From assembly GCA_017474515.1 (NCBI GenBank), contig JAFVHN010000110.1, forward strand, positions 1-46,523: 46,523 bases of DNA, read 5' to 3'. The notes under the pieces were generated by a model. It had not been told where the DNA came from, made no database searches, and worked only from the letters and a program-made list of their open reading frames with translations. Position numbers and translations under genes: made by a program. The DNA comes from Prevotella sp. (GTDB lineage: Bacteria > Bacteroidota > Bacteroidia > Bacteroidales > Bacteroidaceae). Below, piece after piece: positions 4,303 through 41,057 of the stretch (positions within the stretch are counted from its first letter, which is position 1; the number at the start of each line of letters is the position of its first letter).

Positions 4303-4507
4303 GGTAAAAAATGTTGACAATTTTGGTGAAAATTGAACAGTTTTATAACGTATTGATAATCAACGGCTTGAAAATACAGCTTGGTTTGACCGCAAATTTC
4401 AAGGAGAGATTTTGAAGATTGAGAGGAGAAATCTTGAAGATCTCTCACCGAAATTTGCGGTCAAACCTCTTGAAACAATCAACAAGCCATGAAAAATCTT
4501 GACAAAA
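4303..4507 (-). repeat. Dispersed element, copy 1 (reverse orientation)
   Basis: This is one of four copies of a structured intergenic element. Its ends carry related direct repeats (minus strand TTTTGTCAAGATTTTTCA at 4490-4507, and a weaker TTGTCAACATTTTTTACC at 4303-4320). Inside is a perfect 17-bp inverted repeat, GTTTGACCGCAAATTTC at 4384-4400 and its complement at 4450-4466. The 49-bp core holds two copies of a unit near GGAGAAATCTTGAAGATTGA. The tail has TTGATAATCAA (4353-4363) and GTTATAAAA on the minus strand. It lies between a minus-strand pseudogene and plus-strand miaB. Confidence 0.9.
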
Positions 4508-4999
4508 GGAAACTGCCCGCTTTTTCATTTATCGTTCAGCGCTTCGCTAATGGTTCATGCTTCGCTATCATGAAAAAAAGCAGAGATTATGCAAAATGTG
4601 TATAATTATTCATTTCAAGTTTCGCATTCGCTCAACTTCTTGGAGTTACAGGAGATAAAATGCTTTTAAATGATGAATTCTTAGTTATGAATTATGCACA
4701 GCAGCAAAAACTCATAACTCATAACTCAAACTTAATAGTTCTGAAAACTCCCTTTTCGTCAGTATGCAGAGGTTGGAAGTATTGTCTGAACTCCTGTAAC
4801 TCCTGAACTCCATCAACTTGAGAAAGTTGAGTTATTCATGCAGATTTGGAAAAAGAAAACGGAAAAATGTGTTCATGGGTGATAATCGGGTAGCCTCCAG
4901 AACTGATGTCTGAAATCCTGAAACTCCTGAACACTTGAACTCCGGAGAAGTTGAACAAATGCAGAAAGTAGGGTTATTTTAGTTAATGTTCCCAAAACT
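4508..4999. other. Gene-free interval with degenerate repeats
   Basis: I see no credible gene here. The interval is richer in A and T than its surroundings. It holds TCATAACTCATAACTCAAA near 4710-4735 and two degraded AACTCCTR blocks at about 4776-4811 and 4902-4945. The first has the leader AAGTATTGTCT also found at 661-671. Each block is followed by a short GAGAAGTTGA-like sequence and ATGCAGA, so the stretch looks like a duplicated repeat segment that has decayed. Confidence 0.6.
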
Positions 5000-5023
5000 T
5001 TCGTTACTTACGGGGTTTTTCGC

Positions 5024-5031
5024 TATCTTTG
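5024..5031 (+). promoter_or_regulatory. -7 promoter element of miaB
   Basis: TATCTTTG matches the Bacteroidota TAnnTTTG element and lies 20 bp before the miaB ATG at 5051. The matching -33 element is weak (TTTCG around 4999-5003). Confidence 0.65.
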
Positions 5032-5050
5032 CAGCGATTATCATTTGCAA

Positions 5051-6397
5051 ATGACAAAAAAACTCTTTATTGAGACGTACGGCTGCCAGATGAACGTGGC
5101 CGACTCGGAAGTCGTGGCCTCGGTGATGCAGATGGCGGGCTATGAGACCTGCGACGCGGCGGAGGACGCCGACGCGGTGCTGCTCAACACCTGCTCGGTG
5201 CGCGACAATGCCGAACAGAAGATTGTACACCGCCTGGAGGTGCTGGCCGCCATGAAGCGCTCGCGGCAAAAAGACCACCGCCAGCTCATCGTGGGCGTGC
5301 TGGGCTGCATGGCCGAGCGCGTGGGGCAAGACCTCATCGACCATCACCACGCCGACTTGGTGGCAGGTCCCGACGCTTATCTCTCGTTGCCATACCTCAT
5401 TGCACAATGCGAGGCGGGAGGGAAGGCCATCAACACCGATTTGTCAACCACCGAGACCTACCGCGACGTGGTTCCGCAACGCCTGGCCATGGGCCGCAAG
5501 GTTGGCGGATTCGTCAGCATCATGCGCGGATGCAACAATTTTTGCCACTATTGCATAGTGCCTTATACGCGCGGACGCGAGCGCAGCCGCGACGTGGAGA
5601 GCATCTTGCGCGAGGTGGACGACCTGGCGCAGAAAGGTTTCCGCGAAGTGACACTGCTGGGGCAGAACGTCAACAGCTACGGCCTGTCGCCATCGGGGCG
5701 GCCCATCGACGGCGGCACCAGCTTTGCACAACTGCTCACCCTGGTGGCGCAACGCGTGCCCGACCTGCGCGTGAGGTTCACCACCAGCAACCCCGAGGAC
5801 ATGAGTGAGGACATTCTTCACGCCATGGCCGCCGAGCCCAACCTGTGCCCGCACATACACTTCCCCGCCCAGAGCGGGAGCAACCGCACCCTGCGGATGA
5901 TGAACCGCAAATACACGCGCGAGGACTACCTGCAAAAGGTGGAGGCCATCAGGACCATTCTGCCCGGTTGCGGACTGAGCACCGACCTCTTCGTGGGCTA
6001 TTGCGGAGAAACGGAAGACGACTTCCGGCAAACACTCTCGCTGGTCAGCGAGGTGGAGTTCGACAGCGCGTTCATGTTCAAATACTCTGAGCGGCCCGGC
6101 ACCTACGCCGCCAAGCACCTGGCCGACGACGTGCCCGAGGAGGAGAAAATACGGCGGCTGAACGAGCTCATTCGGCTACAGACCGACATCTCGGCCAAGC
6201 GCAACGCCGCCGACGTGGGAAAGGTGTTCCCCGTGCTGGTGGAAGGCTTCAGCAAGCGCTCACACGAACAACTCTGCGGACGCACGCCCCAGAACAAGAT
6301 GGTGGTGTTCGACAAAACCGGCCACCACATCGGCCAGACCGTCAACGTGAAGATTACCGGCAGCAGCAGCGCCACGCTCACCGGGCAGGCGCTATGA
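5051..6397 (+). CDS. miaB: tRNA-2-methylthio-N6-dimethylallyladenosine synthase
   Basis: This 448-residue radical-SAM methylthiotransferase adds the ms2 group to i6A37 of tRNAs reading UNN codons. The N-terminal UPF0004 domain opens with IETYGCQMNVADSEV and supplies cysteines for the second iron-sulfur cluster (also CSV and GCMAER regions). The radical-SAM cluster motif is CNNFCHYCIVPYTRGRERS at about residue 160. A C-terminal TRAM domain ends with VNVKITGSSSATLTGQAL. I chose ATG 5051; a TTG six bases upstream is in frame but unnecessary. It is the first gene of the long plus-strand block, but its tRNA role is separate from the envelope genes that follow after 56 bp. Confidence 0.96.
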   Translation: MTKKLFIETYGCQMNVADSEVVASVMQMAGYETCDAAEDADAVLLNTCSVRDNAEQKIVHRLEVLAAMKRSRQKDHRQLIVGVLGCMAERVGQDLIDHHHADLVAGPDAYLSLPYLIAQCEAGGKAINTDLSTTETYRDVVPQRLAMGRKVGGFVSIMRGCNNFCHYCIVPYTRGRERSRDVESILREVDDLAQKGFREVTLLGQNVNSYGLSPSGRPIDGGTSFAQLLTLVAQRVPDLRVRFTTSNPEDMSEDILHAMAAEPNLCPHIHFPAQSGSNRTLRMMNRKYTREDYLQKVEAIRTILPGCGLSTDLFVGYCGETEDDFRQTLSLVSEVEFDSAFMFKYSERPGTYAAKHLADDVPEEEKIRRLNELIRLQTDISAKRNAADVGKVFPVLVEGFSKRSHEQLCGRTPQNKMVVFDKTGHHIGQTVNVKITGSSSATLTGQAL

Positions 6398-6453
6398 CGC
6401 ACGGTCGCTTCATCATCCATTAATTTTTCAAAGGAAATGGAAACCCGACAACT

Positions 6454-40207: not shown

Positions 40208-40230
40208 CCCACCCGTTTTCTTCCCCCTAC

Positions 40231-40250
40231 GCCGCAACACCCATTGCGGC
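40231..40250 (+). repeat. Small intercistronic hairpin GCCGCAA-loop-TTGCGGC (copy B)
   Basis: A 7-bp stem (40231-40237 with 40244-40250) closes a CACCCA loop in the gap between the YitT-family gene and rdgB. It matches the stem and most of the loop of copy A at 10502-10520. Confidence 0.65.
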
Positions 40251-40287
40251 CCATCCCCAAAAATCACACTCAAAAAAAGAAAAGAAC

Positions 40288-40872
40288 ATGAAAATAGTTT
40301 TCGCCACCAACAACGCCCACAAGCTGGAAGAAATCCGCCAGATACTGGGCAACGACTTCGAAGTGTTGTCGCTGGCCGACATCGGTTGCCACGACGACAT
40401 TCCCGAAACAGGCAACACCCTGGAGGCCAACGCCTTGCAAAAGGCTCAATATATCATGGAAAAATACGGCTACGACTGCTTTGCCGACGACACCGGCCTG
40501 GAAGTGGAGGCCCTGGGAGGCGAACCCGGCATCTTCTCGGCACGCTACGCCGGCGGAGAGGGCCACGACAGCGAGGCCAACATGCGCAAACTATTGGCAA
40601 AGCTGGAGCACGAGGACAACCGCCGCGCACGATTCCGCACCGTCATCGCCCTGCTCAGGGGCGGCTCGCTCCACACCTTCGAGGGAATAGTGGAAGGCGT
40701 CATCACGCGAGAGAAAAGCGGTGCCGAGGGCTTCGGCTACGACCCCATCTTCAGGCCCGACGGCTACGACCAGACGTTTGCCGAACTGGGTGCCGACGTG
40801 AAAAACAAAATCTCACACCGCGCCAGGGCAACCGAAAAACTGGCACGCTTTTTGCATAAAGGGGCCTCGTGA
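40288..40872 (+). CDS. rdgB: Non-canonical purine NTP pyrophosphatase (RdgB/HAM1 family)
   Basis: This 194-residue enzyme hydrolyses dITP, ITP and XTP to the monophosphates and keeps them out of DNA and RNA. The start [16 protein letters not shown] is the family N-terminus with the substrate-binding [17 protein letters not shown] carries the metal-binding acidic residues, [20 protein letters not shown] the catalytic Asp, and EGFGYDPIF and SHRARA the C-terminal binding motifs. Length is normal for the family. ATG 40288 is the correct start; the frame is open far upstream, but that is an overlap with the YitT gene. A degraded copy of the dispersed element follows. Confidence 0.96.
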
Positions 40873-40878
40873 AGCACG

Positions 40879-41057
40879 GTTTGTAAAGATATTTCAATTG
40901 GAAGGGAGAAATCTTGAAGTTTTAGGGGAGAAATCTTGCATTTTGAGGAGAGAGATCTTGAAGTTCTCTCCCCGAAAAATGGCACTTTTCCAAGCCCTTT
41001 TTTAAACCCTTGACAGTCAGATATTTAGAAAACCCTCTATTTGTAAAGATTTTTTAC
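40879..41057 (+). repeat. Dispersed element, copy 4 (degenerate, three core units)
   Basis: The direct-repeat ends are kept (GTTTGTAAAGATATTTCAA at 40879-40897 and ATTTGTAAAGATTTTTTAC at 41039-41057). The core holds three 22-nt units in place of two (40904-40925, 40926-40947, 40948-40969), each close to GGGAGAAATCTTGAAGTTTT. The GACCGCAAATTTC inverted-repeat arms are lost. The tail retains a weak TTGACAGTCAG (41010-41020). It lies between the co-directional rdgB and GT2 genes. Confidence 0.8.

Follow-up and report, generated by a model that had tools for sequence, protein, structure and literature searches.

The window analysed here, the whole 46,523-nucleotide (nt) contig JAFVHN010000110.1 of Prevotella sp. 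assembly GCA_017474515.1 (hereafter, the host), carries four copies of a dispersed intergenic element whose core is an array of four 22-nt units. The element has a defined architecture and a high copy number, and many unrelated unit families keep the same 22-bp pitch within and between species. In the host, arrays even of unrelated families lie several kilobases apart. We tentatively favor the view that the arrays are docking platforms for a putative DNA-binding protein that would organize the chromosome.

All four copies located in an earlier note on this DNA were present, far above chance: the arm TTTGACCGCAAATT matched the host genome 398 times (190 + 208) with at most one mismatch, and its backward control gave 0 matches. 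The copies share one ground plan, consisting of a left box TTTTGTcAAGATTTTTCA, a spacer, four 22-nt units, a tail, a second spacer and a right box. The tail is the palindrome YTGAWWWTCAR followed by GTTAcAAA, and the right box is a second TTTTGTcAAGATTTTT in the same orientation as the left box, i.e., direct and not inverted. Copy 1 (4303..4507, minus strand) has its left box at 4507-4490, units at 4466-4445, 4444-4423, 4422-4401 and 4400-4379, the tail palindrome TTGATTATCAA at 4363-4353 and the right box at 4320-4303, and its core is flipped relative to its ends. In copy 2 (16338..16542, plus strand), the left box is at 16338-16355, the units at 16379-16400, 16401-16422, 16423-16444 and 16445-16466, the palindrome TTGATAATCAA at 16482-16492 and the right box at 16523-16542. 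Copy 3 (28067..28290, plus strand) consists of the left box at 28067-28083, units at 28097-28118, 28119-28140, 28141-28162 and 28163-28184, the palindrome TTGAAAATCAA at 28200-28210, the right box at 28241-28258 and a conserved 3′ extension to TATCCACC. Copy 4 (40879..41057, plus strand) is diverged; it begins 6 bp past the stop of a Ham1-domain open reading frame (ORF) at 39505-40872, with the left box from 40879, units at 40900-40921, 40922-40943, 40944-40965 and 40966-40987, and the right box up to 41057.

The TTTGACCGCAAATTTC arms of copies 1-3 are units 1 and 4, and copy 4 has four units without these arms. The 17-bp inverted repeat described previously is thus absent from copy 4, and its right arm is imperfect in copy 2; what all four copies have in common is the four 22-nt units. 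Copies 1 and 3 have units of two kinds, so their repetition at lag 22 is weak. The 3′ end had also been placed too early, as many copies are conserved for about 20-25 bp beyond it, up to a TATCC. ORF calls and Pfam matches agreed with the gene contexts and the two orientations reported before; the gap around copy 1 is divergent, that around copy 2 is convergent, and copies 3 and 4 lie in co-directional gaps. No transposase or REP-associated tyrosine transposase (RAYT; REP, repetitive extragenic palindrome) was found among the 20 window proteins scanned with Pfam.

A profile search beyond the window, of the kind proposed in the earlier note, showed that these four are not the only copies. The profile, first derived from 33 copies and then rebuilt on 82, found 87 copies (family 1) in 1,184,138 bp of fifteen contigs, some of them cut and the window included, i.e., one per 13.6 kb, or about 260 by extrapolation to the 3.51-Mb genome; in a BLAST-type search of the whole host assembly, 40 of 264 candidates were scored. 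Where both boxes fitted the strict pattern (33 of 81 copies), the span from left to right box was about 200 bp (189-202), and a motif test of core orientation called 48 of the 81 forward and 13 reversed. The 66 copies in called gaps were distributed as 37 co-directional, 17 divergent and 12 convergent, near the background of all 481 gaps (291, 96 and 94); 19 of 85 copies lay outside called gaps, and the ORFs overlapping them were taken as spurious. Copies in co-directional gaps ran with the genes in 20 cases and against them in 17, the orientation pairs of neighboring copies were nearly equal (20, 20, 18 and 14), and no link of array orientation with coding strand (16/14/9/8) or GC skew (22/17/15/13) was found in the host. 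Gene arrangement and strand have little link to the host arrays, and the data support the earlier proposal of a dispersed element and not a cis-regulator of one gene class.

The spacing of these arrays departs strongly from chance. Among 72 family-1 intervals (mean 12.9 kb, coefficient of variation (CV) 0.56), only 2 were shorter than 5 kb, against 23 expected from uniform placement and 18-22 from random intergenic gaps. The host also holds other lag-22 families, mostly within long family-1 intervals. A scan outside family 1 gave 19 matches at lag 22, barely above the 17 at lag 14, because many short-period arrays occur there too; by eye, five other 22-bp array families were recognized, with units such as GGACTGGAGTCGGATGCGGTC and TTTTGCTTGTAAGCGAAAGG, on contigs C94, C66, C25, C104, C53, C59, C69, C26, C115, C80 and C42. 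All 18 such arrays were at least 4.7 kb away from the nearest family-1 copy, although 10.2 were expected within 4 kb from all gaps and 8.7 from gaps free of family 1, and 0 of 5000 draws was as low in either case. Here and in genome G124 below, the first null included gaps holding main-family copies, though overlapping matches were excluded, and it was therefore repeated without those gaps. The low-complexity match C69:16788 is outside the 18, and the centering test and the test with family-1-free gaps were run with and without it. The ten other-family arrays lying singly in a family-1 interval sat mid-interval (0.379 versus 0.259 of its length, P = 0.002). When all 105 host arrays were pooled, the 90 intervals had a mean of 11.0 kb and a CV of 0.448, compared with 0.868 ± 0.076 for the null (minimum 0.62 in 5000 draws), and 4 were below 5 kb, compared with 32 expected. 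Tandem arrays of period 7 (23 arrays), 8 (23), 9 (10) and 10 (8), found with other cut-offs, did not avoid the element.

The full-length host sequence matched none of the 59 other genomes searched. A DNA consensus search of 60 genomes gave only weak partial matches, in 4 besides the host, and for this reason the tail motif was singled out for a wider search, which found it in 56 of 100 genomes, host included (backward control 0 or 1). At 29 tail-motif loci (28 of the same genus and one of the same order), 7 had upstream tandem units, unrelated in sequence, with a period of 22 or 44, and no other upstream period reached the cut-off; downstream, periods 22, 15 and 21 appeared once each, and far control stretches gave one at 40. 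In a separate observation, genome G088 (L136, L142, L145, L148, L151) carries the tail motif TGATTATCAATGTATTACAAA in copies that are near-identical over at least 230 bp. These may represent the terminus of an insertion sequence and could hint at where the tail came from.

Further scans gave the same pitch. A de novo scan of 40 stretches from 21 same-genus genomes yielded 62 matches, of which 34 had lag 22 or 44; these came from 13 of the genomes. Eighty named leuS loci yielded 34 matches at lag 22, 7 at lag 44 and at most 6 at any other lag, and none after block shuffling. Of the 421 intergenic gaps at these loci, 46 attained 0.60 at lag 22, and at most 9 did so at any other lag from 13 to 35; the arrays numbered 44, in 35 of the 80 loci, Bacteroides and Paraprevotella records among them. 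Of 200 same-genus genomes, 43 contained the doublet AAAAGN5CTTTTN7AAAAGN5CTTTT; in nine of these it occurred 95 to 281 times, with backward controls of 0-1. In 750 kb of NC_022111 (Prevotella sp. oral taxon 299), 27 matches were at lag 22 and 4 at lags 13-21 and 23-35 together, and a four-unit score of at least 30/40 was reached at 85 positions with pitch 22, 2 with pitch 21 and 0 with pitches 18-20 and 23-26. This 1.77-Mb replicon is filed as a plasmid in PLSDB. Genome G124 (two contigs, 2.7 Mb) gave, outside its main family, 17 matches at lag 22 and 4 at all other lags; by unit chain, 400 kb of it contained 33 arrays, 32 of which had exactly four units (10 of the 33 overlapped a called ORF, which was taken as spurious). 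In genome G063, the units are more conserved than the linkers (1.57-1.67 versus 0.77-1.08 bits in 7 of 9 arrays, the other two being too near an end), and linkers change while the pitch stays, as they do by eye in NC_022111. The 22-bp-pitch design is widespread across Bacteroidales, where its units have other sequences.

The spacing rule that is strong in the host is partial in G124 and NC_022111 and was not seen in G016. In G124, 15 other-family arrays lay a median of 5.7 kb from the main family, compared with 2.8 kb expected from all gaps (P = 0.015) and 3.7 kb from main-family-free gaps (P = 0.049), and 1 of the 15 was within 2 kb, compared with 6.1 expected from all gaps (P = 0.004). For the pooled 52 arrays, 3 intervals were below 2.5 kb, compared with 12.2 expected (0 of 5000 draws as low); match 5441 belongs to the pooled arrays but not to the 15, and 343182/343243 count as a single array. 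In NC_022111, after removal of 4 of 55 arrays because they lay within long ORFs, 4 of 50 intervals were below 4 kb, compared with 11.3 expected (P = 0.002). On one contig of G063, six arrays follow one another at distances of 8.5-11.5 kb, to which a looser scan adds a lag-22 match 0.5 kb from the first. Exclusion from the terminus was inconsistent between genomes and was not accepted as a general rule. Array density in NC_022111 falls around the GC-skew maximum at 750 kb (450-950 kb, L328-L337), with 34 arrays in 12 segments within 300 kb of the maximum and 99 in 17 segments beyond (29 of about 36 segments of 50 kb were read); on the dnaA-bearing replicon of G124, however, there is no depletion opposite dnaA, where the first 400 kb hold 13 of 38 exact-motif sites and the last 366 kb hold 6.

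Under the reading favored here, each copy would be a dispersed DNA cassette that works through its array of binding units, usually four in number. A 22-bp pitch would correspond to about two helix turns, so that the units would face the same side. A sequence-specific DNA-binding protein, or a related set with diverged specificities, would load on the units, and a stable complex roughly every 11 kb may anchor or insulate chromosomal (topological) domains, for which about 10 kb is usually quoted in E. coli. As long as protein and unit continued to match, unit sequence would be free to change fast, while pitch and spacing persist. The outer boxes and tail may help to copy the cassette into new intergenic sites, and the whole may be a mobile cassette family that became, or is tolerated as, a chromosome-organizing site. 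Docking at the DNA level is preferred over an RNA or a gene regulator because the pitch is constant while linkers change, four units are preferred, the host has one spacing that unrelated unit families obey, and the host arrays are indifferent to gene orientation. A more far-reaching joint claim, which we regard as rather unlikely, is that Bacteroidales chromosomes bear a ladder of four-site binding arrays of 22-bp pitch, one roughly every 8-13 kb, that unrelated families share it and replace each other, with architecture and distance selected and not sequence, and that it constitutes a periodic chromosome-organizing system with fast-evolving DNA specificity.

Several observations weigh against docking and regular spacing. 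The whole cassette is conserved in the host and in G124, where units hardly exceed linkers in conservation; this, like the sharp ends of the conserved cassettes, indicates that copies also spread by copying. G124 arrays prefer convergent gaps (10 of 23) over divergent ones (1 of 23), unlike those of the host. Exclusion in G124 becomes borderline with main-family-free gaps (1 of 15 within 2 kb versus 3.9, P = 0.058), and its evenness by CV is not significant (0.80 versus 0.96, P = 0.08). The CV in NC_022111 (1.22 versus 0.98) is the opposite of even, because one large region is poor in arrays, and the 160 kb of G016 have two lag-22 pairs 0.7 kb apart, with 2 of 8 intervals below 4 kb compared with 1.4 expected. 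Array positions are shared between distant species no more than by chance (P = 0.23). Conserved base pairing, described below, also suits an RNA or hairpin reading. Finally, the spacing idea arose from these same data, namely the first host spacing test (six contigs were added later, and G124 and NC_022111 are other genomes), and genes were taken from a crude ORF caller.

The main rival, a serious one although we consider it doubtful, is a selfish non-autonomous mobile cassette without host function, in which a recombinase would read the outer boxes and the array, and spacing would come from target immunity or selection against close copies. The fixed length and sharp ends suit it (189 bp in all 23 G124 copies with both boxes matched, of 32 examined), as do the two orientations, the species-specific families, the lack of conserved positions between distant species and the close pairs in G016. 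Against such a cassette, unrelated host families exclude each other over kilobases, which immunity of one element would not produce unless the families shared a machinery reading the 22-bp array, and the constraint on units over linkers in G063 and host ends that are not inverted repeats are likewise unexpected. For the last reason the MITE-like (miniature inverted-repeat transposable element) nature suggested earlier was not borne out, as the ends are direct in the host and weakly inverted in G124. A self-recognition signal, such as a DNA-uptake or recombination hotspot sequence, would likewise be species-specific and potentially well spread, and the host has hundreds of well-spread copies; we nevertheless consider it very unlikely, since several unrelated families coexist in one genome and since known uptake signals are short and not fixed-pitch arrays.

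A structured RNA or RNA-level element (terminator, 3′ stabilizer or small RNA) is improbable in our judgment. Three sequences have stable predicted folds (z = -6.1, -4.4 and -4.3). Across 26 host copies, 90.9% of the pairs of the main hairpin are retained, and the two-hairpin covariation score (0.103) is higher than in any of 500 shuffles (mean 0.078) or any of six slid versions. This pairing is thus conserved, as the suggestion of a structured RNA would have it, but it fits a DNA inverted repeat as well as RNA. Many arm pairs never vary, two-sided changes numbered 9 compared with 8.5 in shuffles, RNAalifold gives a two-sided change in 4 of 30 pairs, and no Rfam family exceeded the gathering score for the element. 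Moreover, host copies show no orientation preference (20:17) and are not rarer in divergent gaps (17/66; all gaps, 96/481), copy 4 lacks the arms, and an RNA reading predicts no spacing. Covariation between G124 units was rejected as proof of pairing, as units 1-3 gave P = 0.01 and other unit pairs gave none or the opposite.

A family of REP or bacterial interspersed mosaic element (BIME) type moved by a RAYT (Y1) transposase, also among the earlier suggestions, is largely refuted, and we give it hardly any probability. The element is palindromic, intergenic and of high copy number, and the genome search found one Y1_Tnp protein in the host; its RAYT-like gene (L282; contig C24, 23184-23495), however, lies between palindromes GTAGGGACATAC..GTATGTCC of its own, and the element profile has no match in this 3.3-kb locus. 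These palindromes bear GTAG tags and form a separate REP-like family. By eye, the element consensus has neither a GTAG nor a CGTC tag, the tags given as defining REPs in the part of PMC3733652 used here. Compared with REP/BIME systems with RAYT, the window element is alike in being a high-copy intergenic palindrome and differs in lacking the tag and the RAYT link and in its fixed 22-bp pitch.

The claim that the element is undescribed was half right, as PINSR of Prevotella intermedia is apparently a published member of the same class and was the only published relative found in the open-licence literature, where we recognized no paper on 22-bp-pitch arrays in Bacteroidetes or on mutual exclusion between repeat families. 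In the section used here of its description (Naito et al. 2015, PMC4755523), PINSR is a lineage-specific intergenic repeat of 188 bp in 177-184 copies, without coding sequence or assigned function, which also occurs downstream of tnaA; that section contains neither the 22-bp design nor spacing. We read G124 as a PINSR carrier, on circumstantial grounds, because its 189-bp element fits this description, as does an array situated some 280 bp downstream of the gene that best matches Beta_elim_lyase (tryptophanase-like). Its left box TTTTGTAAAgATAATT and tail TGAtaa....GTTA resemble those of the window element, which shares the four 22-bp units, whereas the unit sequences are unrelated (the host and G124 consensus lines have no unit in common) and the right box is inverted in G124 and direct in the window. 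At the one site compared in the sibling genome G017, the element is 85% identical and the adjoining genes 89-93%. The window element belongs to a PINSR-type class as we define it from G124 and the host, with four 22-bp units, a tail palindrome, outer TGTAAA-type boxes, intergenic location and high copy number. Identity with PINSR itself was not borne out by comparison with the presumed carrier, as the AAAAGN5CTTTT doublet has 0 matches in the host. A G124 array had no match in a phage collection, and the window element had none in a plasmid collection.

BrickBuilt of Porphyromonas gingivalis is likewise an intergenic Bacteroidales repeat with a tandem core within leader and tail; as far as described in the part of PMC4596501 used here, it is a MITE of 23-nt units (1 to 22.8 per element, 84-991 nt, 19 copies) with IS5-type terminal inverted repeats. 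The window element is not a member, as its pitch is 22 and not 23 and its ends differ by eye from those published repeats.

Among other systems, the 22-bp iterons of plasmids such as R6K and pPS10 offer several units to a replication protein, and their arrays can pair, but they are direct repeats at replication origins and are not dispersed over chromosomes. The sites of Noc, SlmA and MatP are palindromic, spread over the chromosome and bound by an organizing protein; they are single sites, fewer in number and not arrays, and terminus exclusion is inconsistent for the 22-bp arrays.

Other features of the window were noted in passing. The only Rfam match in the window is a cobalamin riboswitch (RF00174, 105 bits; 27786-27962, minus strand) at the start of a TonB-receptor plug-domain gene, with copy 3 some 100 bp upstream. 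Three intergenic arrays with a 10-bp unit of CCTAGGAAGA type (1535-1611, 12419-12505 and 29529-29650) form a separate repeat family, and 8-bp tandem arrays of CTAAACTC type at 586-740 have an inverted arrangement around position 640. Two LicD-family genes (10543-11373 and 14414-15229) are 71-77% alike in DNA over several blocks and lie near glycosyltransferase genes.

If arrays of unrelated sequence share one spacing rule, they would be multi-site landmarks at the scale of topological domains. This would provide a testable handle on chromosome organization in gut, rumen and oral Bacteroidales, and a reason for PINSR and its kin, a repeat class so far unexplained. Even if the cassettes are selfish, mutual exclusion of unrelated families in one genome would be a new behavior for small bacterial repeats. 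The arrays may thus be an unrecognized part of how these chromosomes are organized.

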